DNA from: Synechococcales cyanobacterium S06
GTDB lineage: Bacteria > Cyanobacteriota > Cyanobacteriia > Cyanobacteriales > JAABRE01
Length of the DNA: 64,000 bases
Direction of reading: 5' to 3'
Assembly (NCBI GenBank): GCA_011391125.1
Contig: JAABRE010000013.1
Location: 1-64,000, forward strand
Shown here: piece by piece, positions 628 through 47,474 of the stretch
How positions within the stretch are numbered: the stretch's first letter is position 1
How the letters are laid out: each line of letters opens with the position of its first letter
Program-made: the position numbers and the translations under genes
The notes under the pieces: model-generated
The model's input: only the letters and a program-made list of their open reading frames with translations
What the model was told of the DNA's origin: nothing
Databases searched by the model: none

Positions 628-3600
628 TTAAGCAAAAACAAAATCATTAGTGGTTAAAGTCAAGTTGCCATCGAGGGTGACTAATTCTTGATTATCAGAC
701 TTAAGAGTAATAATGGTTGAAGTACCAACACTGGCAATATTCAAGTCCTCAAAACTGTCTAATTGAGTGCCAAAATCACCACCAATACCAAGGACATCTT
801 CACCCTGAGCAAAGTCGGTAATGCGGTTTCCAGCAGCGGGGAAGCTTCCAGCATTCGCAATCCAGAATTGGTCTGCTCCTTCTCCTCCGGTAATGAGGTT
901 GTCGCCACCAGTACCAACGAAGAATTTGTCGTCTCCGTCACCACCGATGAGGCGATCGCCTGCACCTAAAGTAAAGGTATCATTACCATTACCACCGTAA
1001 ACTCGATTACCTCCTCGGCTCTCGTTGCTAAAGAGTTCATCGTTACCTTCACCGGCGAAAACGATGTCATCTTTACCAGCGATAATCTTGTCATTACCAG
1101 TACCAGCAAAAATGCGATTATTACCAGTATTAGCGGTGGAAGTATCAACCAAGTCATCACCTGCACCAACAAAAGTTAAGGTATTATCACCCTCAAAACC
1201 GGAGATACCGACTTCAAGTGTATCAGGGTTAATACCACCAAAAACATTGGTGGCAGTGGGGACAGGAACTTCCTCATTATCAGCAATAGTCACGGTAGCC
1301 GAAGTGGTTGTACCCAAGTCATAGCTAGTACCATCGACTAAGGTCAGACGAACAGTTTCATTACCTTCGACGAGGGTATCATCGATGGGTTTAACCTCAA
1401 TGGTAGCGGAAGCTGCACCTGCTGGAATAGTAACAGTAGCCGGAATTTCGGTATAGTCAGTGCCATTGGTAGCTGTACCAGCGATGGTATAGGTAACCTC
1501 CTGAGCTGCGGTGAGGTCTCCAGTACGAGTAACAGTAAATGTTCCCGTATTAGTTCCTGGTTCACTAGCTGCATCATCCGTAGCGGCGATGGTAATAATG
1601 GGGCCAGTAATAACTGGATCATTATCAGCAATATTCACCGTTGCGGAGTTAGCTTCACCCAATTCATAGCTATCACTAGCATCTAAGGTCAAACTAACAG
1701 TTTCAGTACCTTCAATGGCGGTATCATCTACGGGAGTAACCTCAATGGTAGCGGAACTTTCACCAGCAGGAATGGTAACAGTAGTAGAAATTTCGGCATA
1801 GTCATCGACATTGGTAGCTGTACCATCGATGGTATAGGTAACCTCCAGAGGAGCAGTGGTGTCTCCAGTACGAGAAACGGTAAAGCTTCCAGGAGCTTCT
1901 CCTTCTTCACTAGCTGCGTTATCAGTAGCTACGATGGTAATAACAGGGTTAATCGGATCAACCTGATCATTATCAGCAATATTCACCGTTGCGGAGTTAC
2001 TCGCACCTAAAGTATAGCTATCACTAGCATCTAAGGTCAAACTAACAGTTTCAGTACCTTCAATGGCGGTATCATCTACGGGAGTAACCTCAATGGTAGC
2101 GGAACTTTCACCAGCAGGAATGGTAACAGTAGTAGAAATTTCGGCATAGTCATCGACATTGGTAGCTGTACCATCGATGGTATAGGTAACCTCCAGAGGA
2201 GCAGTGGTGTCTCCAGTACGAGAAACGGTAAAGCTTCCAGGAGCTTCTTCTTCTTCACTAGCATTTTCTGTCGCTGCGATGGTAATAATGGGGCCTGTAA
2301 ATTCCTCATTATCAGCAATAGTTACCGTAGCTGCTTGAGCTGTGGTATCCAAGTTATAGCTATCACTAGCAGCTAAAGTCAGTTCCACAGTTTCAGGACC
2401 TTCAGCAAAGGTATCCTCTATGGGAGTAACCTCAATGGTAGCGGAAGTTTCACCTGCCGGAATGGTAACAGTCGCAGGAATTGTATAATCAGTACCATCT
2501 TCAGCTGTACCAGCGATGGTGTATTTAACTTCCAAAGCGTCTGTGAGGAATTTATCACGGGTCACGGTAAAGGTTCCTGGATCAAGTCCTTCTTCAGCTG
2601 CCTCAGCATCAGTGGCCTCAATCTTAATCATGGGCTTCTCAAGTTGATCATTATCAGCAATAGTTACCGTAGCTGATTTATCTGCACCCAAGTCATAGGT
2701 TTGTAGATCGACTAAGTTTAGTTTGACAGTTTCAGGACCTTCAGCAAGGGGAAAATCCTGTTTGGGAGTAATATCAATGGTAGCGGAAGCAGAACCTGCC
2801 GGAATGGTAACGGTAAGAGGAATCTCGGTATAGTCAGTACCATTAACAGCTGAACTTGAGCCATCGATGGTGTATTGAACTTCCAGAGCAGCGGTGAGGT
2901 CGCCTTGACGAGTAACGGTAAATTGTCCTACTTTACCAGCTTCACTTGCATTTGGCTCTGTAGCTGCAATAGAAACAAGGATAGGATCATTATCCAAAAT
3001 ATTTACCGTAGCTGATTGAGTTCCTGAATCAGGATTCAAGTCATAGTTAGGATTTTGGTTATCAGTTAAGGTCAAAACGACAGTTTCAGTTGCTTCGGTC
3101 ACCTTATCATCTTTAGGCTTAACATCAATTGTATATGTAGTCAGCCCAGCAGGAATGGTAATGGTAGTATCAACAATTTGGGTATAATCCGTGTCACCAG
3201 TTCCCACAGCTGTACCACCGATGGTATAGGTAACATCAAGAGCGTTAGTGGTGTCTCCGGTACGGGTAATGGTAAATTGTCCGGGGTCAGTTCCCTGTTC
3301 ACTAGCATTAACATCATTGGCAGCAACAGTAACGATGTTAGGATCATTATCCGCAATATTGACAGTAGCGTTAGTAGTTGCACCCAAGCCATAGCTAGTA
3401 CCACCATCAACCAACGTCAGAAGGACAGTTTCACCAGTTTCTGTATCCTTATCATCGATGGGCTTAATTTCAATGGTAGCGGAAGCAGCACCTGCGGGAA
3501 TGGTAACAGTAACAGGAATTTGGTTATAGTCAGTGCCATTGGTAGCTGTACCGGCGATGGTATAGGTAACATCCAGAGCGTTAGTGGTGTTTCCGGTACG

Positions 3601-5421
3601 AGTAACGGTAAATGTTCCTGGATCTGTTCCCAGTTCAAGTGCTTTAGGATCCGTGGCTACAATAGTAACGAGAGTAAGCTCATTATCAGCAATATTTACG
3701 GTGGCTGAATTCATTTGTTCCTCTGGTTTAGCTGGATCCAGGGGCTTCAGGTCATAGTTAGCACCATCGGCTAAGGTAACAATGACAGTTTCATTACTTT
3801 CGGAGCTAGCATCATCTATGGGCTTAACGTCAACAGTAGCGGAAGTTTCATCCTTTTTAATTACAACGGTGAAAGTTTTAGGTTTGTCTGCAACTGCTGT
3901 ACCAGTTTGTTTATAGTCCGTATCATTAATCGCTGTACCTGAAATGTCATAAGTCACTGTCAGATCTGCACTGAGGTCGCCAATACGGGTAATGGTAAAT
4001 TGTCCGGGGTCAGTTCCCTGTTCACTAGCATTAGCATCGTTAGCCACAATAGTAACAATGTTAGTATCATCATCGGCAATCTTTACTGTCGCTGATTTAA
4101 CTGTACCTAAGTCATATTCAGCATTATTACTGTCGGTTAAGGTGAAAATGACATTTTCACCAAGTTCGGCGATGGTATCATTTATGGTAGTAATGTCAAT
4201 GGTAGTGGAAGTTTCATTCGCAGGAATAATAACTTCATAGGGAATGTCAAATTTGGTATAGTCCTTGCCATTTTCGGCTGTACCACCGATGGTATATGTC
4301 ACGGTGAGAGGTTCAGCTAGAGCAGCGGGATCTACGTTACGGGTAACAGTAAATTGTCCAGCAGCTCCCCCTTCCCGAGCGTTCTCCTTATCCTTTGTTG
4401 CTTCAATAGTAACTAGAGGAAAATTATTATCAGCAATATTTACTGTAGCTGAAGCCAATGCATCCAAATTATAATCAACACCATCAGTTAAGGTCAGAGT
4501 GACGGATTCATTATTTTCATCATTATCCGCATCAATGATGGGAGTAACGTTAATGGTAGTAGTAGCTACACCGGCAAGAAAGTTAACTAAAGTAGGAATT
4601 TTGGTATAGTCAGTCTCATTTTCAGCTGTACCACCGATGGTATAGTTAACGGTCAGAGGAGCACTGAGGTCCCCCAGACGGGTAACGGTGAATTCTCCTA
4701 CATCTCCGCCTTCCCTGGCTTGAGACTTATCTTTGGTTGGTTCAATTTTTACTACGGGAGTTTCATTATCAGCAATATCTACAATTGCTGATTGCTCTGG
4801 TACAACTATAGTCACGTCATACTTATCACCTTCGACTAAAGTTAGAGAGACCTTTTCGCCAAGTTCTGTTTCTGTATCATTTACAGGAATAATGTTAATA
4901 TTAGCGGAAGCTGCTCCGGCGGGAATAGTAACGGTAAGAGGAATTTGTTCATAGTCAGAGCCGGCCGTAGCTGTATTATCCTTCTCGCTATATTTCAATG
5001 TTATTGTCAGATCTGTAGAGGTGTCTCCTATACGACTGACGGTAAATTGTCCTGGATTAAGTCCCTTTTCACTAGCTTGATTATCCGTTGCTTTAAGGCT
5101 AATGATGGGAAACTCATTATCAAAAATATAGGCCGTAGCTGATGATCCACCGACACCACCGACACTCAGAGTGACGGTTTCAATGGTTTCTGTTTCAGGG
5201 TTATCTTTGGGAACAAGGGGAATAAGAGCTGAAGCTATACCTGCTGGGATTGTAATGACACCATTAAGAGGATCATAGTCAGTACCATTGGTAGCTGTAC
5301 CACCGATGGTATAGTTAACGGTCAAAGGAGCGGTGAGGTCTCCGTCACGAGTAACGGTAAAAAGACCTTGATCAGATGGTTCAGTGGCAAATTGATCTGT
5401 AGCTGTAATAGTAATGGCCAT
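628..5421 (-). CDS. Calx-beta repeat / RTX calcium-binding secreted protein
   Basis: The 1597-residue protein begins with twelve consecutive Calx-beta domains of about 110-125 residues. Each runs from GxFTVTRxGD through YTIxGTAxNGTDY and ends in ATVNIADN. The last roughly 220 residues are glycine/aspartate-rich RTX-type nonapeptides (GGNGNDTF, GGDGDDKF, GGEGADQF) ending in a hydrophobic LTLTTNDFVFA tail. There is no N-terminal signal peptide, and the C-terminal RTX block is the usual signal for type I secretion. Probable role: an extracellular, calcium-stiffened adhesin or cell-surface filament. The RBS agaggt precedes the ATG. Domains 10 and 11 are almost identical in DNA over about 280 bp with a 348-bp (116-codon) offset, a sign of recent internal duplication, so repeat number may vary between strains. 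Plus-strand ORFs inside this gene are shadows. Confidence 0.9.
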   Translation of the reverse strand: MAITITATDQFATEPSDQGLFTVTRDGDLTAPLTVNYTIGGTATNGTDYDPLNGVITIPAGIASALIPLVPKDNPETETIETVTLSVGGVGGSSATAYIFDNEFPIISLKATDNQASEKGLNPGQFTVSRIGDTSTDLTITLKYSEKDNTATAGSDYEQIPLTVTIPAGAASANINIIPVNDTETELGEKVSLTLVEGDKYDVTIVVPEQSAIVDIADNETPVVKIEPTKDKSQAREGGDVGEFTVTRLGDLSAPLTVNYTIGGTAENETDYTKIPTLVNFLAGVATTTINVTPIIDADNDENNESVTLTLTDGVDYNLDALASATVNIADNNFPLVTIEATKDKENAREGGAAGQFTVTRNVDPAALAEPLTVTYTIGGTAENGKDYTKFDIPYEVIIPANETSTTIDITTINDTIAELGENVIFTLTDSNNAEYDLGTVKSATVKIADDDTNIVTIVANDANASEQGTDPGQFTITRIGDLSADLTVTYDISGTAINDTDYKQTGTAVADKPKTFTVVIKKDETSATVDVKPIDDASSESNETVIVTLADGANYDLKPLDPAKPEEQMNSATVNIADNELTLVTIVATDPKALELGTDPGTFTVTRTGNTTNALDVTYTIAGTATNGTDYNQIPVTVTIPAGAASATIEIKPIDDKDTETGETVLLTLVDGGTSYGLGATTNATVNIADNDPNIVTVAANDVNASEQGTDPGQFTITRTGDTTNALDVTYTIGGTAVGTGDTDYTQIVDTTITIPAGLTTYTIDVKPKDDKVTEATETVVLTLTDNQNPNYDLNPDSGTQSATVNILDNDPILVSIAATEPNASEAGKVGQFTVTRQGDLTAALEVQYTIDGSSSAVNGTDYTEIPLTVTIPAGSASATIDITPKQDFPLAEGPETVKLNLVDLQTYDLGADKSATVTIADNDQLEKPMIKIEATDAEAAEEGLDPGTFTVTRDKFLTDALEVKYTIAGTAEDGTDYTIPATVTIPAGETSATIEVTPIEDTFAEGPETVELTLAASDSYNLDTTAQAATVTIADNEEFTGPIITIAATENASEEEEAPGSFTVSRTGDTTAPLEVTYTIDGTATNVDDYAEISTTVTIPAGESSATIEVTPVDDTAIEGTETVSLTLDASDSYTLGASNSATVNIADNDQVDPINPVITIVATDNAASEEGEAPGSFTVSRTGDTTAPLEVTYTIDGTATNVDDYAEISTTVTIPAGESSATIEVTPVDDTAIEGTETVSLTLDASDSYELGEANSATVNIADNDPVITGPIITIAATDDAASEPGTNTGTFTVTRTGDLTAAQEVTYTIAGTATNGTDYTEIPATVTIPAGAASATIEVKPIDDTLVEGNETVRLTLVDGTSYDLGTTTSATVTIADNEEVPVPTATNVFGGINPDTLEVGISGFEGDNTLTFVGAGDDLVDTSTANTGNNRIFAGTGNDKIIAGKDDIVFAGEGNDELFSNESRGGNRVYGGNGNDTFTLGAGDRLIGGDGDDKFFVGTGGDNLITGGEGADQFWIANAGSFPAAGNRITDFAQGEDVLGIGGDFGTQLDSFEDLNIASVGTSTIITLKSDNQELVTLDGNLTLTTNDFVFA

Positions 5422-31083: not shown

Positions 31084-32307
31084 ATGTTTGTTGTAGAATG
31101 CAAAATCAGAAAACCTAAACCTAATCAAATTCTTGCCATGGAAGAAGCTATTAAAACTTCTCAGTTTGTGAGAAATAAGGTTTTGCGTTTTTGGATGGAC
31201 AATAAAGGTATGGGTAAAACTGAGCTTTTTCGCTACAACACTCAATTGCGTGCTGAATATCCCTTCGTCAAAGACTTAAATTCCCATGCTTGTCAAACTG
31301 CTGTAGAACGTACTTTGCGAGCGATTAATCGGTTTTATGATAATTGCAAAAAGCAGGTACAAGGGAAAAAAGGTTATCCCCGTTTTAAGAAAAATTCTCG
31401 CTCTGTTGAATATAAAGTGTCAGGCTGGAAATTGTTAGAAAACCGCAATAAAATTACTTTTACTGATAAAAAAAATATCGGTGAAGTTAAATTAATTGGT
31501 ACAAGAGACTTAAATTATTATCAACTTGAGCAAATCAAACGAGTCAGAATTATTAGACGAGCCGATGGTTATTATGTACAGTTTTCTATTCAATTAGACC
31601 CTAGAGATACGGTTAAACCATTGATTCCTAGTCAAGAATGCTGTGGAATTGATATGGGTTTAAAGTATTTCTTAGCAGAATCAAATGGAAATATTGAGCC
31701 GATACCTCAGTTTTATCGGAAAGCCGAAAAGCAGTTAAATAAGCTAAACAGAAGAAAGTCAAAGAAATTTCAAAAAGGAAAACCTCAATCCAAAAATTAT
31801 CACAAAGCTAGGAATAGATATGCTCGAAAACATTTAAAAGTAAGTAGGCAGCGAGAAGAGTTTGCTAAGAGAGTAGCACTCCGTTTAATCAAGTCTAAAG
31901 ACTTAGTAGCCTACGAAGATTTAAGTGTCAAGAACATGGTCAGAAATCGAAAACTAGCGAAGTCGATAAGTGATGCGGGATGGTCATTATTTCGCCGATG
32001 GTTAGAATATTTTGCCTATAAATATGGGAAAATTGCTATAGCAGTTCCACCCCATAATACGAGTCAACAATGTTCTAATTGTGGTGCAATAGTTAAGAAG
32101 TCGCTATCAGCTCGAACCCATATTTGTCCTCAATGTGGGTTTGTAGAAGATCGAGATGTTAATGCGGCCTTAGTCATCTTGCAACGTGGATTAAATACCG
32201 TGGGGCACACGGAAATTAACGCTTGGGGAAAAGATACCTCTACTTTGGTGGGAGCAATCCTGTCAGAACAAGTAACTTTGATGAACCAAGAATCCCCACG
32301 CCTTTAG
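31084..32307 (+). CDS. tnpB: RNA-guided nuclease TnpB (IS605-family)
   Basis: The 407-residue protein looks intact. It has an N-terminal OrfB helix-turn-helix region, RuvC-I Asp in CGIDMGLKYFLAE, RuvC-II Glu in VAYEDLSVKNM, a zinc ribbon (CSNCG...CPQCG) and RuvC-III Asp in EDRDVNAAL. TnpB uses an RNA transcribed over its own 3' end to cut DNA matching the flank, helping the element to persist. There is no TnpA here, so movement needs a TnpA in trans. All catalytic acids are kept, so it may be active. Confidence 0.93.
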   Translation: MFVVECKIRKPKPNQILAMEEAIKTSQFVRNKVLRFWMDNKGMGKTELFRYNTQLRAEYPFVKDLNSHACQTAVERTLRAINRFYDNCKKQVQGKKGYPRFKKNSRSVEYKVSGWKLLENRNKITFTDKKNIGEVKLIGTRDLNYYQLEQIKRVRIIRRADGYYVQFSIQLDPRDTVKPLIPSQECCGIDMGLKYFLAESNGNIEPIPQFYRKAEKQLNKLNRRKSKKFQKGKPQSKNYHKARNRYARKHLKVSRQREEFAKRVALRLIKSKDLVAYEDLSVKNMVRNRKLAKSISDAGWSLFRRWLEYFAYKYGKIAIAVPPHNTSQQCSNCGAIVKKSLSARTHICPQCGFVEDRDVNAALVILQRGLNTVGHTEINAWGKDTSTLVGAILSEQVTLMNQESPRL

Positions 32308-36683: not shown

Positions 36684-37685
36684 TTAGTTAATTTGTGATA
36701 AAATTAAGCCAAAATATTGCTGTGTATCCGTAAATGTTTGTACTGTTTTTAAGCCCATTTTTGTTAAATATGCTGACATTTTTTCCAGGTTAAATTTACG
36801 AGAAATTTCGGTATGGATGGTTTCTCCTTCGCTAAAATTAACCGCTAAATCAAGTTTTTCTAATCTGACAGAATGGGCTTTTTTACATTTTAAATACATC
36901 TCAATTTGATTCTCTTTTTCGTTATAAAAGGCCAAATGTTCAAAATTATTTAAGTCAAAATTCCCCTGAAAACGCCAATTCAAATGACTTAAAATATTGA
37001 GGTTAAATTTGGCGGTAATTCCTTGACCATCGTTATAGGCTGCGTTTAAAATATCCCTAGGTTTTTGTAAGTCTATTCCTAATAAAAAATAATCCCCCGG
37101 TGTTAAGGATTCCTTAATTTCTTTGATCAGGCGATCGCACTGTAATTGATTAAAATTACCCAGTGTACTTCCCAAAAAAATGATCATTCGACGGGATAAA
37201 AGTTGGGGAATAGTAGTTAACTTTTCTAAAGCAACTTCGTAGGTACTAGCAAGAGCATCAATAGTTAAATTAGGATAATCTAATAATAAACTTTTCGCAC
37301 TTTCAAAAAGCATACTATCACTAACATCAATGGGTAAATAATGGAGAGGATAACCTAAATTTTGATAACTATTTAAGATAATTCTTGTTTTAGTTGAACT
37401 ACCACTTCCTAATTCAATTAATTCACAAATTTCCGTTAATTGGGCAATTTGAGGAGCATATTTTTCTAATATACTTGCTTCGATACGGGTGGGATAATAT
37501 TCGGGTAACTCGCAAATTTGTTCAAACAATTGTGAACCTATTTCGTCATAAAAATAATGACAAGGAATCGTTTTCTCTTTTTGGATTAAACCAGCAATTA
37601 GTTCAGATTCCTCATCCTGTTTTAAAGTATTTTCTGGTAATAAATGCTTAATTTCTAATCTTGAATCGACTGTCTTTGAAACCAT
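36684..37685 (-). CDS. egtD: L-histidine N(alpha)-methyltransferase
   Basis: EgtD trimethylates histidine to hercynine, the first step of ergothioneine synthesis. The 333-residue protein has the family start LIAGLIQKEKTIPCHYFYDE, the SAM-binding CELIELGSGSSTKT, and RMIIFLGSTLGNF. A partner EgtB is not in the window. Without EgtB the annotation as ergothioneine synthesis is an inference; the methyltransferase family itself is clear. Confidence 0.88.
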   Translation of the reverse strand: MVSKTVDSRLEIKHLLPENTLKQDEESELIAGLIQKEKTIPCHYFYDEIGSQLFEQICELPEYYPTRIEASILEKYAPQIAQLTEICELIELGSGSSTKTRIILNSYQNLGYPLHYLPIDVSDSMLFESAKSLLLDYPNLTIDALASTYEVALEKLTTIPQLLSRRMIIFLGSTLGNFNQLQCDRLIKEIKESLTPGDYFLLGIDLQKPRDILNAAYNDGQGITAKFNLNILSHLNWRFQGNFDLNNFEHLAFYNEKENQIEMYLKCKKAHSVRLEKLDLAVNFSEGETIHTEISRKFNLEKMSAYLTKMGLKTVQTFTDTQQYFGLILSQIN

Positions 37686-38237: not shown

Positions 38238-41200
38238 ATGTCCTTAGATAATCTAAATAATGAACAATTACAAGCCGAAATAACAGCATTACAAGAACGT
38301 TTAAAGAAATTAGAACAAAAAGAACGCGCCCGTGCAGCACAAATAGCGCAACAAAAGGCCTTATTTGGCGTTATTTGTCGGATTCGCGAATCCTTGGAGT
38401 TAGATCAAATTTTTCAGTCAACGGCCAGTGAAGTTCGTCAATTGTTGAACGCTGATCGGGTCGGAATGTATAAATTTGACACTGACTCCAATTATAATCA
38501 GGGGGAGTTCGTTTCCGAAGATGTGAAACCCGAATTTGTCTCCGCTTTAGCTCACAGAATAAATGATCATTGTTTTGGCGATCGCTACGCAAGTTATTAT
38601 CAACAGGGTAAAATTTGGGCCTGTGAGAACATTGAACAAGTAGGCTTAAGTGCTTGTCATATCTCGATTTTAGCTCGTTTTCACGTCAAAGCCAATTTGG
38701 TTGTACCTCTAATCAAGGGGCAAGATTTGTGGGGTTTATTGTGTATTCATCAGTGTAGTGGTCCGCGAAAATGGGCCAATCATGAGATTGAATTTGTCAG
38801 TCATATTGCCACCCATTTAGGAGTAGCTCTGCAACAAGCGAACCAGGTTCAACTCCTACAAAATCAATCGGAGCAATTGGCTCAAGCTGTGGGAAAAGCC
38901 GTACAACGGGAAAAAGCGGCCGCAATTATTATTGATAAAATCAGGAGATCCCTTGATCTTAATAAGATTTTTGAAACTACCACCGAAGAATTACGCAATT
39001 TAATTCAAGCTGATCGGGTGGCCATTTATAGCTTTAATGAGGATTGGAGTGGTCAATTTATCACCGATTCCGTGAAAAAAGGTTGGAAATCCTTAATTTT
39101 AGAGCAGGAAGAATACCCCGAATTATGTCAAAATATTAGCGAGTGTAGCATCAAATATTTGCCCAGTCCCCAGACAGATAGCTATTTACAAATGACACAA
39201 GGAGGTACATTTAACAGGAAAAATGTTTTTCGAGTTTGTAATGATATTTATGAACAGGGCTTTTCTTCCTGTTATATTCAGGCTTTAGAGTCGTTTCAAG
39301 CTCGAGCTTATGTGATCGTTGCCATCTATGAAGGAGATCAACTTTGGGGATTATTAGCAGCATATCAAAATAGTGCCCCGAGACATTGGCAAACTGATGA
39401 CATTAACTTTTTAGTCCAAGTTGGTTCGCATTTAGGAGTTGCCAGTCAACAAGCTGAGTTGTTGGCACAAACCAAGAAGCGATCGGAATCATTGCAAAGT
39501 ACCCTAGAACAGGAATTGCAAAAAAGAGCCGAGGAATTGGCCGAAGAAGCCGAACGGGAAAAAGCGTTAGGGGAAGTGATTGAGAAAATTCGCCGCACTT
39601 TGGATATCGAAACCATTTTTCAAACCGCAAGTACGGAATTACGTCATTTGTTGAACGCAGATCGGGTGGCCATTTTTAAGTTTGCTCCTGATAGTAGTTG
39701 GACTGAGGGCGAATTTGTCTCCGAAGATGTTGCGCCTAACTATCAATCGGCATTGGTTGGTGTTGTCTGCGATGATTGTTTTGGTGAAAAATATGTCAGT
39801 GACTATCAACAGGGTAAAATTTGGGCAGTTAATGATGTTGACGAGTCCCATCTAAGTGATTGTCATTTAACCACTCTGTCGCGTTTTCAGGTCAAATCCC
39901 ATGTTATTGCGCCTTTGGTCAAAAATAATGGCTTATGGGGTTTATTGTGTATTCATCAGTGTTCCCCCCGAAACTGGGAAGGGAAAAACATTGAATTTGT
40001 CAGAAAGGTAGCCATTCAGCTAGGAGTAGCTCTGCAACAAGCCGATTTATTGGAGAAAACCACCCAAAAAACCAAGGAATTACAAGGAGTTTTGGCTCAA
40101 GTTCAAGCTCAAAAGGAACAACAGGTCAAAATTGCCGAACAGGAACGGACTTTAGCGAGGGTTATTGAACGCATTAGGCAAACTTTAGATATTGAAACTA
40201 TTTTTAGGGCTACAACCCAAGAAGTTAGGCAAATTCTCAACTGCGATCGCGTAGTGGTTTATCGCTTTTTTCCTAACTGGAGCGGAGAGTTTTTGTATGA
40301 ATCAATGAGCGAAGGCTGGAAATCCTTAATTTCTGACACTGGGGAAACCACAGTTTGGGAAGACACCTATTTACAGGAAACGAAAGGAGGTCGGTATGTT
40401 AATCATCAAGATTTGGTCATTGATGACATTTATCAAGCTAATTTGAATCCTTGCCATGTAGAAATTTTAGAGCTATATCAAGTCCGCGCTTTTATGGTGG
40501 TTCCCGTGTTTATTGGCGAGAAACTCTGGGGTTTGTTGGCTGCTTATCAAAATTCTGGTCCTCGTGGTTGGGAAGATCGAGAATTGGCGTTGTTAAATCA
40601 AATAGCCAATCAGCTAGGGGTGGGATTAAATCAAGCGAATTTATTGGCACAAACTAAGCAACAATCGCGACAATTACAAACTACGGTGGCGGATTTGAAT
40701 GCCATTGTGGATAATTTGGCCGATGGTTTATTGGTGACAGATATTTTTGGGAATATTACTCGCTTTAATCCCGCTTTATTACAGCTGTTTGAACTAGAAA
40801 ATATTGACCTCAAAAATAGAAATATTAATGAGTATTTTCCGAGAACTTTAGTTAATTTAAATAAGGAAAATAGCGAGAAAAAACGAAATACTTTTAATAC
40901 AGATGTGGAATTACCAAATGATCGTTTCGGCCAAGCTTTAGCTACTACTATTATTAAGGATTTAGATAATAATAATTATGGTGACGAATGTTTGGGTTGG
41001 GTTATTTTAATTCGTGATGTTACCCATGAACGAGAAATTGATCGCATCAAAACCGACTTTTTAGCTACGGTTTCCCACGAATTGAGAACTCCTTTAACTT
41101 CGGTTTTGGGTTTCGCTTCTATTATCCAAGATAAGATGAATAAGGTTATTTTTCCAGCCGTTGATCCTGATAATTTTAAAGCAGTTAAAGCGATGAAAAG

Positions 41201-42497
41201 GGTCTCAGATAATATTAATATTATTGTCACCGAAGCTGAGAGATTGACTTCTTTAATTAATGATGTTTTAGATATTGCTAAAATGGAAGCTGGAAGGGTA
41301 GATTGGAAGATGGAATTAACTGATCCTGTTTTGATTTTAGAACGGGCGATCGCCGCCACATCCTCCTTATTTGACAAGGATAAAATCAAATTAGTGAAAA
41401 ATATTCCCGAAGATTTACCGAATATTACCGTGGATCGCGATCGGTTAATTCAAGTAGTAATTAACTTAATTTCTAACGGAGTAAAATTTACTGAAAAAGG
41501 CTTTGTTACCTGCACTGCTAGAATAGAAAATAGTCACTTAATTGTGGAAATTGCGGATACTGGCATGGGTATTGCAAAAGAAAACCATGAGAAAGTATTT
41601 GAGAGATTTGCCCAAGTAGGCAATGTATTAACAAATAAACCGAAAGGAACAGGTTTAGGATTGCCTATTTGTAAGCAAATTATTGAACACCATGGCGGAA
41701 AAATTTGGGTGGAAAGTGAGATCGGTCAAGGAAGTACCTTTTCTTTTAGTCTTCCCTTGACCACGAAAGAAGAACTTTATAAATCCTATAATATTGACTT
41801 TGAAAATTTGAAAAAACAATTAGCAAATACCACTGAAAAAACAGACCTTATTTCGCGCCAAAATAGTCCCAAAAAAGTAATTTTAGTCGTGGATGATGAC
41901 CCAAATATTCGCAAATTACTCCGACAATGTTTAGAAGAGGAACTATATGAGGTAATTGAAGCTCAAAATGGTTTTGAAGCGATTAATTTTGCCAAATCGT
42001 TAACACCTGATTTAATTATCTTAGATGTAAAAATGCCCCAGATTAATGGTTTTGATGTGGCTGCTGTTTTGAAAAATGACCCCCAAACCATGACTATTCC
42101 GATTATTATTCTCTCGATTATTCAAGATGCAGAAAGGGGCTATAAAATTGGTGTTGATCGCTTTTTACCTAAACCTTTAAATAAAGATGGATTACTCAAG
42201 GAGGTTAATTCCTTACTCAATCAAGGAGAGTCAAGCAAAACCGTGTTAATAGTGGATCGAAACGCCTCCACCTTAAAAACCCTCTCAGAAACCTTACAAA
42301 CCCAAGGTCATCGCGTGATTGAGGCGAATGATGGGGAAGAGGGTTTAAAAAAAGCTTTATCATTTAGGCCAGATTTTATTATTATAGATTCTATGTTTTC
42401 TCAAGAACCGGATCTAATCAAAACTTGGCGTTTTACAAAGGGTTTAGAAAATGTTTCCTTAATTTTTTGGGGAAATACTGAAGAAAATCAATCATAA
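38238..42497 (+). CDS. Cyanobacteriochrome hybrid kinase: 4 GAF, PAS, HK, 2 REC
   Basis: I start at ATG 38238 (1419 aa) because the upstream TTG at 38163 lies in a dispersed repeat. Order: coiled coil, four GAF domains (about 40-205, 230-405, 445-595, 640-795), PAS, HisKA with ATVSHELRTPLTS (H947), HATPase (DTGMGIA, GTGLGLPI) and two receivers, the first with LIILDVKMP and the second degenerate (FIIIDSMF). Every GAF keeps the bilin-type Cys: GAF1 ACHIS C140, GAF2 SCYIQ C345, GAF3 DCHLT C542, GAF4 PCHVE C739. GAF1 and GAF3 also carry DXCF (DHCF, C112; DDCF, C514), as in blue/green sensors. GAF4 has WEDTYLQETKGGRY, as in red/green AnPixJ-type GAFs. It is likely a soluble multicolour light sensor kinase. 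Next gene starts 26 nt downstream. Confidence 0.88.
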   Translation: MSLDNLNNEQLQAEITALQERLKKLEQKERARAAQIAQQKALFGVICRIRESLELDQIFQSTASEVRQLLNADRVGMYKFDTDSNYNQGEFVSEDVKPEFVSALAHRINDHCFGDRYASYYQQGKIWACENIEQVGLSACHISILARFHVKANLVVPLIKGQDLWGLLCIHQCSGPRKWANHEIEFVSHIATHLGVALQQANQVQLLQNQSEQLAQAVGKAVQREKAAAIIIDKIRRSLDLNKIFETTTEELRNLIQADRVAIYSFNEDWSGQFITDSVKKGWKSLILEQEEYPELCQNISECSIKYLPSPQTDSYLQMTQGGTFNRKNVFRVCNDIYEQGFSSCYIQALESFQARAYVIVAIYEGDQLWGLLAAYQNSAPRHWQTDDINFLVQVGSHLGVASQQAELLAQTKKRSESLQSTLEQELQKRAEELAEEAEREKALGEVIEKIRRTLDIETIFQTASTELRHLLNADRVAIFKFAPDSSWTEGEFVSEDVAPNYQSALVGVVCDDCFGEKYVSDYQQGKIWAVNDVDESHLSDCHLTTLSRFQVKSHVIAPLVKNNGLWGLLCIHQCSPRNWEGKNIEFVRKVAIQLGVALQQADLLEKTTQKTKELQGVLAQVQAQKEQQVKIAEQERTLARVIERIRQTLDIETIFRATTQEVRQILNCDRVVVYRFFPNWSGEFLYESMSEGWKSLISDTGETTVWEDTYLQETKGGRYVNHQDLVIDDIYQANLNPCHVEILELYQVRAFMVVPVFIGEKLWGLLAAYQNSGPRGWEDRELALLNQIANQLGVGLNQANLLAQTKQQSRQLQTTVADLNAIVDNLADGLLVTDIFGNITRFNPALLQLFELENIDLKNRNINEYFPRTLVNLNKENSEKKRNTFNTDVELPNDRFGQALATTIIKDLDNNNYGDECLGWVILIRDVTHEREIDRIKTDFLATVSHELRTPLTSVLGFASIIQDKMNKVIFPAVDPDNFKAVKAMKRVSDNINIIVTEAERLTSLINDVLDIAKMEAGRVDWKMELTDPVLILERAIAATSSLFDKDKIKLVKNIPEDLPNITVDRDRLIQVVINLISNGVKFTEKGFVTCTARIENSHLIVEIADTGMGIAKENHEKVFERFAQVGNVLTNKPKGTGLGLPICKQIIEHHGGKIWVESEIGQGSTFSFSLPLTTKEELYKSYNIDFENLKKQLANTTEKTDLISRQNSPKKVILVVDDDPNIRKLLRQCLEEELYEVIEAQNGFEAINFAKSLTPDLIILDVKMPQINGFDVAAVLKNDPQTMTIPIIILSIIQDAERGYKIGVDRFLPKPLNKDGLLKEVNSLLNQGESSKTVLIVDRNASTLKTLSETLQTQGHRVIEANDGEEGLKKALSFRPDFIIIDSMFSQEPDLIKTWRFTKGLENVSLIFWGNTEENQS

Positions 42498-42523
42498 AAA
42501 TAACCAAAATTAATCATAAAAAC

Positions 42524-42904
42524 ATGAATAAAAAAGTTTTAATCGTAGATGATGAACCGAATATTATCATCTTAATGGAGCAGGCCTTAGAAGAATTAGA
42601 GGACGAATATGAGGTGGAATTACTAACAGCAAATAATGGCTTAGATGCCTTAGAAACGATTAAAGATGAGCAGCCAGATTTAGTATTTCTTGATGTTATG
42701 ATGCCGAAAATGAGCGGTTTTGAGGTGTGCGAAATTGTAAAAAAACAGTTATATTTAGACCAAATTTATATTATTATGCTAACAGCAAAAGGGCAAGAAT
42801 TGGATAAACAAAGTGGTATTGCAGTGGGAGCCGATTTATATATGACAAAACCTTTTCGCCCTAAAGAAGTTTTGGCCAAAGCCTTAGAAATATTGGGGTT
42901 ATAA
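42524..42904 (+). CDS. Stand-alone response regulator receiver (CheY-like)
   Basis: This 126-residue single receiver domain has the acidic pair in VLIVDDEPN, the phospho-acceptor Asp in LVFLDVMMPKMSG, Thr in MLTAKG and the conserved Lys in MTKPFRP. It has no output domain, so it acts by protein contact or as a phosphorelay step. It sits between the cyanobacteriochrome kinase (26-nt gap) and the diguanylate cyclase (23-nt gap) and is probably their link. Confidence 0.92.
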   Translation: MNKKVLIVDDEPNIIILMEQALEELEDEYEVELLTANNGLDALETIKDEQPDLVFLDVMMPKMSGFEVCEIVKKQLYLDQIYIIMLTAKGQELDKQSGIAVGADLYMTKPFRPKEVLAKALEILGL

Positions 42905-42927
42905 AATTAGTCAGTATCTGAAATTAA

Positions 42928-44301
42928 ATGATCAAAATAAATCTAAAAAAACTGATTGATAAACAATTACCAAATTTCCTGAATAAGATTAATAATTTTT
43001 CTCATCTTCCTTTTACCATTATTGATGTGAAAGGGAAAATTCTTTGGGGAGAAATCAATTATGATCAAACAAATCACCAATATCCGATTCAAGTTAATAG
43101 TCATATTTATGGTTGGGTTATTGGCGATGAAGAAATATCCATTTTAGCTGACCTTTTGAGTGTTTTTACTCAGCAAGAATTAGATAAAAAAATATTAGCT
43201 ATTGATACCTTAGAAAAATACGAAGAAATTAATTTTTTATATGATATAAGTGGGAAAATATCTAATTGTATTAGCACAAAAGAAGTAACCGATTTAGTGA
43301 TAGAAGAAGCTAAAAAAATCTTTGATACTAATAGCGTTTCTGTTTTATTATTTAATGAGAACAATAAACTCAGAAAAACACTGTCATTTTCTTCAGATTT
43401 GCTCGCCAATAATAGCCTGATCCCTTCTTCCATAAAACCCATATTAACCCATATAATGGTATCAGGAAAAGCTGAAATAGTTAATGATGTCAGTTCAGAT
43501 CCTCGCTATATTCCCGAACCAAAAAATAGAATTAAATCATTGCTTTGTGCTCCTTTAACTACTCAAAAAGGAATCATTGGTTTAGTGGTAATTAGTAATA
43601 CTGAATCGACTAATTATAAATCCCATCATTTAAAATTATTAACTGCTTTAACTTCTCAAGCAGCTTCTGCCATTAAAAATGCCCTTTTATATGAAGAATT
43701 AAAAGAATATACTGAAACATTAGAACAGAAAGTAACAGAAAGGACTACTTTATTAAAAAAAGCCAATGAAGAATTAGAAAGATTAGCAACAGTGGATGGT
43801 TTAACAAAAGTAGCAAATCGTCGTAAATTTGATCGATATTTAGAGAATGAATGGTTAAGAATGAAAAGAGCAAATTCACCCCTTGCTTTGATTTTATGTG
43901 ATGTTGATTGTTTTAAGCTTTATAATGATAATTATGGCCATCAAAAAGGAGATCAATGTTTAAAAAAAGTAGCAGAAACTCTAAAAATATCTGTTAAAAG
44001 ACCTGCGGATTTAGTGGCTCGTTATGGAGGAGAAGAATTTGCCATTATCTTACCGAATACTCATTGCGAAGGTGCGGCAAAAGTAGCCGAACAAATAAGA
44101 TTAAAAATCTGTAATCTTCAGATTCCCCATGCTTATTCCCTAGTCGATAAATATGTTACCGTAAGTTTAGGTGTAACTTGTGTAATTCCCACCGAATCTG
44201 AGACCCTTGAACAGTTAATTTTTAGAGCAGATCAAGCACTTTATTCTGCCAAAGGAAACGGTAGAAACCAATTTTATTTTAAATATTATTATGACAGTTG
44301 A
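42928..44301 (+). CDS. GAF-GGDEF diguanylate cyclase
   Basis: The 457-residue protein has an N-terminal region of about 100 residues, a GAF domain (about 105-255, without the bilin Cys-His pair), a short coiled coil and a GGDEF domain with [11 protein letters not shown] at 367-371. The allosteric I-site RxxD (RPAD) lies exactly five residues before GGEEF, so product inhibition by c-di-GMP is expected. No EAL domain is present. It is the third gene of the light-sensor operon and the likely output. Its stop codon (TGA, 44299-44301) lies at the edge of a tandem repeat, which may set the C-terminal residues YYYDS. Confidence 0.92.
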
Positions 44302-44408
44302 TAGTTGATAGTTGACAGTTGATAGTTGATAGTTGACAGTTGACAGTTGATAGTTGATAGTTGACAGTTGATAGTTAATAGTTGATAGTTGATAGTTAAT
44401 AGTTGATA
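44292..44408. repeat. Tandem ~10-bp repeat (tagttgatag/tagttgacag)
   Basis: About eleven copies of a 10-bp unit alternating agttgatagt and agttgacagt follow the cyclase stop and run into MITE A copy 3. Units are contiguous without spacers, so this is a simple tandem repeat and not a CRISPR. It is probably polymorphic among strains. Confidence 0.85.
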
Positions 44409-44530
44409 GTGATTCCAATTAAGATTAAAACAGTTGAAAAATAGGTTCGTAGTTGCGCTTTAGCGCTTCTTAGGACTAAAGTCCAACCACAAACTAAAAA
44501 CTTTTGTTTAATTTTTATTTGGAATTACTA
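44407..44530. mobile_element. MITE family A, copy 3
   Basis: About 95% identical in sequence to copy 1 (183-306) and in the same orientation. The right end is GGAATTACTA plus TA; the left end, TAGTGATTCC, has one change and joins the 10-bp tandem repeat. Intergenic, between convergent genes. Confidence 0.85.
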
Positions 44531-46977: not shown

Positions 46978-47193
46978 ATGAATCAAGTTGCTACTTTTGA
47001 TTACATTTTAGAGCTGGTCGAAAATTTACCCGACGAAACTCAAGAGGACTTAATTGATATTATCCGCAAAAGATTAATTGAAAGACGTCGTCAGGAAATA
47101 GCTGATAGTATTGTTGAAGCAGAACAAGAATATAAATCAGGAAATCTTCTTAAAGGTACAGTTGATGATATTATGAGTGAGTTAATGAAATGA
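46978..47193 (+). CDS. Antitoxin of a RelE/YafQ-like module
   Basis: The 71-residue acidic protein begins MNQVATFDYILELVENLPDE and ends DDIMSELMK. It resembles antitoxins paired with YafQ-like toxins in cyanobacteria. Its ATG-AAA-TGA end overlaps the toxin ATG (47190-47193), giving coupled translation in the usual antitoxin-first order. An aaaggtaa RBS precedes its ATG. Confidence 0.8.
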   Translation: MNQVATFDYILELVENLPDETQEDLIDIIRKRLIERRRQEIADSIVEAEQEYKSGNLLKGTVDDIMSELMK

Positions 47194-47474
47194 AAACTTT
47201 AGTTTTAAGTTCGTCTTTTAAAAGGGCTTTTAAAGCAAAAGTCAAACATAATATAAATTTTGAACAAAAACTTAAAGAAAAATTGCAACTACTTGTAACT
47301 GATCCGTTTAATCCTATTTTAAGAACTCATAAATTAAAAGGAAATTTATCAGGAATTTGGTCTTGTACGATAGATTATGATTGTCGTCTTGTCTTTAAGT
47401 TTATTCCTCAAGAAAATTCAGATGAAGAGGAAATTTTATTAATTAATATAGGAACACACGATGAAGTTTATTAG
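47190..47474 (+). CDS. RelE/YafQ-like mRNA interferase toxin
   Basis: The 94-residue basic protein shows the RelE/YafQ fold pattern: MKTLVLSSSFKRAFKAKVK, HKLKGNLSGIWSCTIDYDCR, LVFKF and the C-terminal LLINIGTHDEVY, which carries the conserved Gly-Thr-His-Asp-x-Val-Tyr of this branch. It likely cuts mRNA on the ribosome when freed from its antitoxin. It ends 13 nt from the convergent hybrid kinase gene. Confidence 0.88.
   Translation: MKTLVLSSSFKRAFKAKVKHNINFEQKLKEKLQLLVTDPFNPILRTHKLKGNLSGIWSCTIDYDCRLVFKFIPQENSDEEEILLINIGTHDEVY

Follow-up and report, generated by a model that had tools for sequence, protein, structure and literature searches.

How might several colours of light be read by one sensor kinase and passed on to the second messenger c-di-GMP? 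This question is raised by a three-gene locus of Synechococcales cyanobacterium S06, located within the 64,000-nucleotide stretch of DNA analysed here (the window).

Organization of the operon

The three genes form an operon on the plus strand, read as open reading frames (ORFs) for a kinase, a receiver and a GGDEF protein (Table 1). The kinase and receiver genes are separated by 26 nt and the receiver and GGDEF protein genes by 23 nt, which confirmed the ORFs and spacing given in an earlier note on this DNA. The kinase ORF encodes 1419 amino acids when counted from the ATG, and a TTG lies 75 nt upstream. Pfam identified four GAF domains, a PAS domain, HisKA, HATPase_c and two Response_reg domains in the kinase, one Response_reg domain in the second ORF, and a GAF and a GGDEF domain in the third. 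A terminator scan detected no plus-strand terminator-like site inside the operon, and the promoter-like sites returned by a promoter scan of the operon were near the shuffle level.

Table 1 Features of the putative light-sensing operon (positions in the window).
Feature	Position	Strand	Evidence
Hybrid histidine kinase: four cyanobacteriochrome GAFs, PAS, HisKA, HATPase_c, REC1, degenerate REC2	38238..42497	+	ORF, Pfam
GAF1, DXCF type; DHCF C112 at 38571-38573, canonical C140-H at 38655-38657	38340..38855	+	Motifs, structure matches, tree
GAF2, predicted insert-Cys type; C303 at 39144-39146 in NISECSIK, canonical C345-Y at 39270-39272	38901..39473	+	Motifs, tree, model
GAF3, DXCF type; DDCF C514, canonical C542-H at 39861-39863	39549..40061	+	Motifs, tree
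GAF4, red/green type; WEDTYLQETKGGRY from about 40356, canonical C739-H at 40452-40454, Tyr at helix-Phe position	40134..40655	+	Motifs, structure matches, tree
PAS domain, between sensor and kinase parts	40692..40844	+	Pfam
HisKA and HATPase_c; phospho-acceptor His947 in SHELRTP	41049..41762	+	Pfam, motif
REC1, receiver with intact LDVKMP	41880..42206	+	Pfam, sequence reading
REC2, degenerate C-terminal receiver, no T/K switch residues	42243..42494	+	Sequence reading; conserved in relatives
Stand-alone CheY-like receiver	42524..42904	+	Pfam, residue conservation
N-domain/GAF/GGDEF protein, predicted diguanylate cyclase	42928..44301	+	Pfam
Adaptor half: N-domain and non-bilin GAF	42928..43713	+	Comparison
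GGDEF domain; RPAD inhibitory site 43999-44010, GGEEF 44026-44040	43786..44271	+	Pfam, motifs

Several other features were observed in the window. A gene for a histidine-specific methyltransferase (Methyltransf_33) lies at 36684-37685, divergent from the operon. At 46978-47474, a 71-aa ORF overlaps the ORF of a YafQ-type toxin (PF15738, E 2e-10), likely a type II toxin-antitoxin pair. An OrfB_IS605/TnpB-like protein with a Cas12f1-like TNB domain is encoded at 31084-32307. At 628-5421 lies the gene for a protein of 1597 aa in which 11 Calx-beta stretches occur together with RTX calcium-binding repeats.

Classification of the four GAF domains

All four GAF domains of the kinase retain the canonical bilin-attachment Cys, as the earlier note had claimed, and the phylogenetic check that it proposed placed all four among bilin-binding cyanobacteriochrome GAFs. 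In both GAF1 and GAF3, the canonical Cys is accompanied by the second Cys of a D-x-C-F motif (C140 with C112, and C542 with C514, respectively), and GAF1 matched a cyanobacteriochrome kinase structure (E = 3e-38). GAF4 carries the W-E-D segment WEDTYLQETKGGRY and the canonical CH within PCHVE; its nearest structures were the red/green domains NpR6012g4, AnPixJ and Slr1393g3 (E 7e-64 to 1e-56), with which it grouped in a clade of 12 rows (support 98/87). At E = 7e-64 for GAF4 and 3e-38 for GAF1, chance resemblance is not in question. The DXCF assignments of GAF1 and GAF3 and the red/green assignment of GAF4, all made earlier from motifs, were thus upheld. Overall, the sequence makes a strong case that the protein is a multicolour cyanobacteriochrome kinase.

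GAF2 had been assigned to the AnPixJ-type red/green domains, and this assignment did not hold. In the alignment, an insert of about 14 residues containing C297 and C303 replaces the red/green Trp segment, and a Trp-Glu-Asp segment free of a loop insert was not found in GAF2. Insert-Cys GAFs, of which PMC5240096 describes four characterised members, carry their second Cys in a CxxR/K motif of an inserted loop. C303-S-I-K in the GAF2 loop fits this motif, and the canonical site is C345-Y. In the trees, GAF2 grouped with insert-Cys domains (11 rows, support 94/82; 24 rows, SH-aLRT 88), membership being set by motif plus the NIES-2108 domain, with the four characterised sequences outside the rows. 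On motifs and grouping, GAF2 is therefore classed as an insert-Cys domain, and three of the four GAFs are predicted to be dual-cysteine domains.

An AlphaFold2 model of GAF2, built on 46 sequences, adopted a GAF fold (mean pLDDT 78), and its nearest structures were the cyanobacteriochrome GAFs of AnPixJ, a dual-sensor kinase, JSC1_58120g3 and Slr1393g3. Residues 84-106, in the insert region, had pLDDT values under 50, so the geometry between C303 and the bilin is putative, a point against the favoured explanation.

A contig scan with the GAF2 alignment used search patterns that took in neither Cys; it yielded 79 named loci, spread over many cyanobacteria. In the combined alignment, 92 domains had Cys at the insert column and lacked the Trp; since that Cys was one of the selection criteria, it is invariant by construction, but the Tyr is not, and C-Y occupied the canonical site in 92/92. 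CxxK or CxxR was present in 80 of these domains. The insert-Cys class thus gains many members from these relatives, C-Y being invariant among them. The same genome encodes two further multi-GAF proteins. In the second kinase (L052, 7525-10836), the one GAF2-type domain observed to lack the insert Cys keeps CY, has Y in its place and is followed by DXCF and red/green GAFs. The third protein (L053, 5468-9295; 1276 aa) has five GAF-type domains, one of them of the insert-Cys type.

Order and origin of the array

With C297 and C303 in the GAF2 insert, the predicted order of the array is DXCF, insert-Cys, DXCF, red/green (D-I-D-R) and not the alternating D-R-D-R of the earlier note. Related arrays were read as D-I-D-D-R (L054, L055), D-I-D-R (L060), D-I-D (L038, L113) and D-I-R-D-D (L058).

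The alternating order had been taken to suggest duplication of a two-GAF cassette. GAF2 does belong to the same broad lineage as red/green domains, its best matches in the PDB being NpR6012g4 and AnPixJ (E about 1e-44). In a 55-row tree, however, forcing GAF2 and GAF4 together cost 99.6 log units (AU test, p 5e-12) and forcing GAF1 and GAF3 together cost 40.4 log units (p 3e-4), and GAF1 joined position-1 domains from other species (99/98). These results ruled out a two-GAF duplication within the lineage. Set beside the missing Trp segment, the CxxK insert Cys with CY and the insert-Cys grouping, they make it highly improbable that GAF2 is a red/green sensor in an array built from a duplicated DXCF and red/green cassette.

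The stand-alone receiver and the GGDEF protein

In the stand-alone receiver, residues D9, D10, D57, T87 and K109 were over 95% conserved among 47 homologues. The GGDEF protein is predicted to be a diguanylate cyclase by its GG(D/E)EF signature and RxxD I-site, both of which are intact, as previously stated: RPAD (358) precedes GGEEF (367) by five residues. The N-domain of its adaptor half had no Pfam match, and a fold search with the whole adaptor half returned only GAF or tandem-GAF structures. Domain and sequence reading found neither a receiver nor a bilin site in the GGDEF protein itself, so its control must pass through the stand-alone receiver or another putative contact. The 3' end of the GGDEF gene overlaps a 7-bp tandem repeat, TGATAGT: its seventeen copies (44292-44410) begin within the final codons and extend beyond the stop.

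The three-gene backbone in other genomes

The window kinase shares with its relatives a backbone of three genes. One encodes a PAS-kinase, to which receivers may or may not be fused, another a stand-alone receiver and the third a protein that opens with the same N-domain and GAF. A stand-alone receiver was located within 2.5 kb of 38 of 48 distinct kinases and an adaptor protein within 2.5 kb of 37 of 48, rates that apply to loci gathered through matches to the window kinase and adaptor and are not unbiased genome-wide estimates. Among kinases without a fused receiver, 15 of 17 had a stand-alone receiver within 600 bp, which makes the stand-alone receiver the likely phospho-acceptor. Some related kinases (L042, L044, L055 and L067) had a receiver but no nearby adaptor, and there may therefore be targets besides the adaptor. 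The earlier note had described what looks like a complete route from light to c-di-GMP; the three genes are indeed conserved together in other cyanobacteria, but "complete" overstates the case for a GGDEF protein without a receiver.

Three kinds of output were found fused to the adaptor half: a GGDEF domain, a histidine kinase and a class III nucleotidyl cyclase, the last identified by Guanylate_cyc (E about 1e-29). Among the light-sensing operons with genes in the order kinase, receiver, adaptor, the output was GGDEF in 11 and a class III cyclase in 3 (L036, L054 and L060); a further light-sensing operon (L040) has an adaptor, and no output was found there. The class III motif scan, which covered the two metal Asp residues, the adenine Lys and Thr/Asp, and the transition-state Asn/Arg, gave a full adenylate cyclase match in 16 of 18 relatives. 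The matches included L036 and L054, whose cyclases keep the metal, adenine-binding and transition-state residues. The L060 cyclase keeps the Asp, Lys and Thr residues and has Ser in place of Asn. The kinase of this last operon, from Symploca sp. SIO2E6, carries the same D-I-D-R array; it aligns collinearly with the window kinase over 1195 residues, at 62% identity.

In AU tests on a concatenated tree, a single clade of all class III cyclase (AC) outputs was rejected (p 2e-63), and a single clade of all GGDEF outputs was not (p 0.34). These results indicated that the output has been exchanged and that one acquisition of GGDEF could suffice. In operons of this kind, the messenger-making enzyme is interchangeable between genomes. 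We advance more tentatively, at somewhat under an even chance, the idea that the chassis itself swapped second messengers, the same multicolour array leading to c-di-GMP or cAMP by species because the adaptor lets a separate receiver drive interchangeable enzymes.

Proposed mechanism and alternatives

We consider it probable that the locus is a light-colour sensory operon in which four bilin GAFs act through the kinase, the stand-alone receiver and the adaptor half on the GGDEF domain and c-di-GMP. Four phycocyanobilin-binding GAFs would give the single kinase several colour inputs, the three dual-Cys domains having short-wavelength (near-UV to blue) ground states and GAF4 a red one. A supply of bilin is likely, since the same genome encodes one member of the bilin reductase family, which is ferredoxin-dependent (Fe_bilin_red, E = 3.7e-75). 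Photoconversion would change kinase activity at His947. From there, phosphate would pass to two receivers, the fused REC1 and, as the most important step, the stand-alone one. The latter would then make contact with the N-domain/GAF half of the GGDEF protein, and this contact would set GGDEF activity, upward or downward, and hence c-di-GMP. Judged from gene association and intact residues, a c-di-GMP output by way of the stand-alone receiver is plausible.

The kinase and receiver could instead form a light pathway that acts elsewhere, for example on motility, with the GGDEF protein a mere neighbour under the control of its own GAF's ligand. Such an arrangement would account for the lack of a receiver in the GGDEF protein, for the relatives in which kinase and receiver have no adaptor gene nearby, and for the resemblance of the adaptor half to tandem-GAF ligand-binding modules. 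We nevertheless regard it as unlikely, because the adaptor half is tied to kinase and receiver in two deep clades with different outputs, and, in 11/11 GGDEF and 3/3 AC light-sensing operons ordered kinase, receiver, adaptor, 4-243 bp separate the adaptor and receiver ORFs. Less likely still is that some GAFs are structural spacers without photochemistry, the kinase reading only one or two colours. Relatives have lost the Cys at single positions (GAF4 in L064, L065 and L070; GAF1 in L067), the paralogue L052 of the same genome keeps CY without the insert Cys, and GAF4 of the window kinase has a Tyr at the helix-Phe position, all of which would fit spacers. Against this, the window kinase keeps every canonical and second Cys, the Trp and Asp of GAF4, and the beta-strand Phe positions.

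If the relay from bilin GAFs to adaptor works as proposed, the receiver-adaptor pair could pass a kinase signal to different enzymes, and orthologous operons with the same colour array and different messengers would constitute a natural experiment that reveals how a colour of light is linked to c-di-GMP or to cAMP.

Comparison with known systems

Cyanobacteriochrome or phytochrome-like GAF input controls c-di-GMP turnover in SesA/SesB/SesC and Cph2. In those systems the sensor and the GGDEF/EAL domains reside in one protein, whereas the window operon has a kinase with a separate receiver in between. Similar in layout is the CdgK/CdgS operon of Anabaena PCC 7120, which pairs a multi-sensor hybrid kinase with a diguanylate cyclase and for which a phosphorelay to c-di-GMP was demonstrated (PMC9927289). 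CdgS contains a REC and CdgK an Hpt, whereas the window GGDEF protein lacks a REC and the window kinase uses bilin GAFs as sensors.

The sensor array resembles that of Nostoc punctiforme NpR1597, in which tandem cyanobacteriochrome GAFs in one protein also begin with a DXCF domain followed by an insert-Cys domain: NpR1597g1 is a teal-DXCF domain and NpR1597g2 an insert-Cys domain of the near-UV/blue type (PMC5240096), so such arrays are already known. The presumed orthologue of NpR1597 in N. punctiforme NIES-2108 (L097) has a DXCF GAF1 and an insert-Cys GAF2 with CY (55 and 60% identity), but its kinase half differs, and its 18.6-kb locus revealed no neighbouring gene for a REC, an adaptor or a GGDEF protein. 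Compared by published motif, Mbr3854g4, Mbl3738g2 and NpF2164g3 (PMC5240096) resemble GAF2 as red/green-related GAFs with an inserted loop and a second Cys in CxxR/K. No description of the three-gene chassis was found among the matches listed by searches of the open-access literature (PMC). The photoreceptor classes themselves are already known, and the novelty appears to lie in the operon chassis, which combines a kinase and a stand-alone receiver with an N-domain/GAF adaptor that is joined to different enzymes in different genomes.
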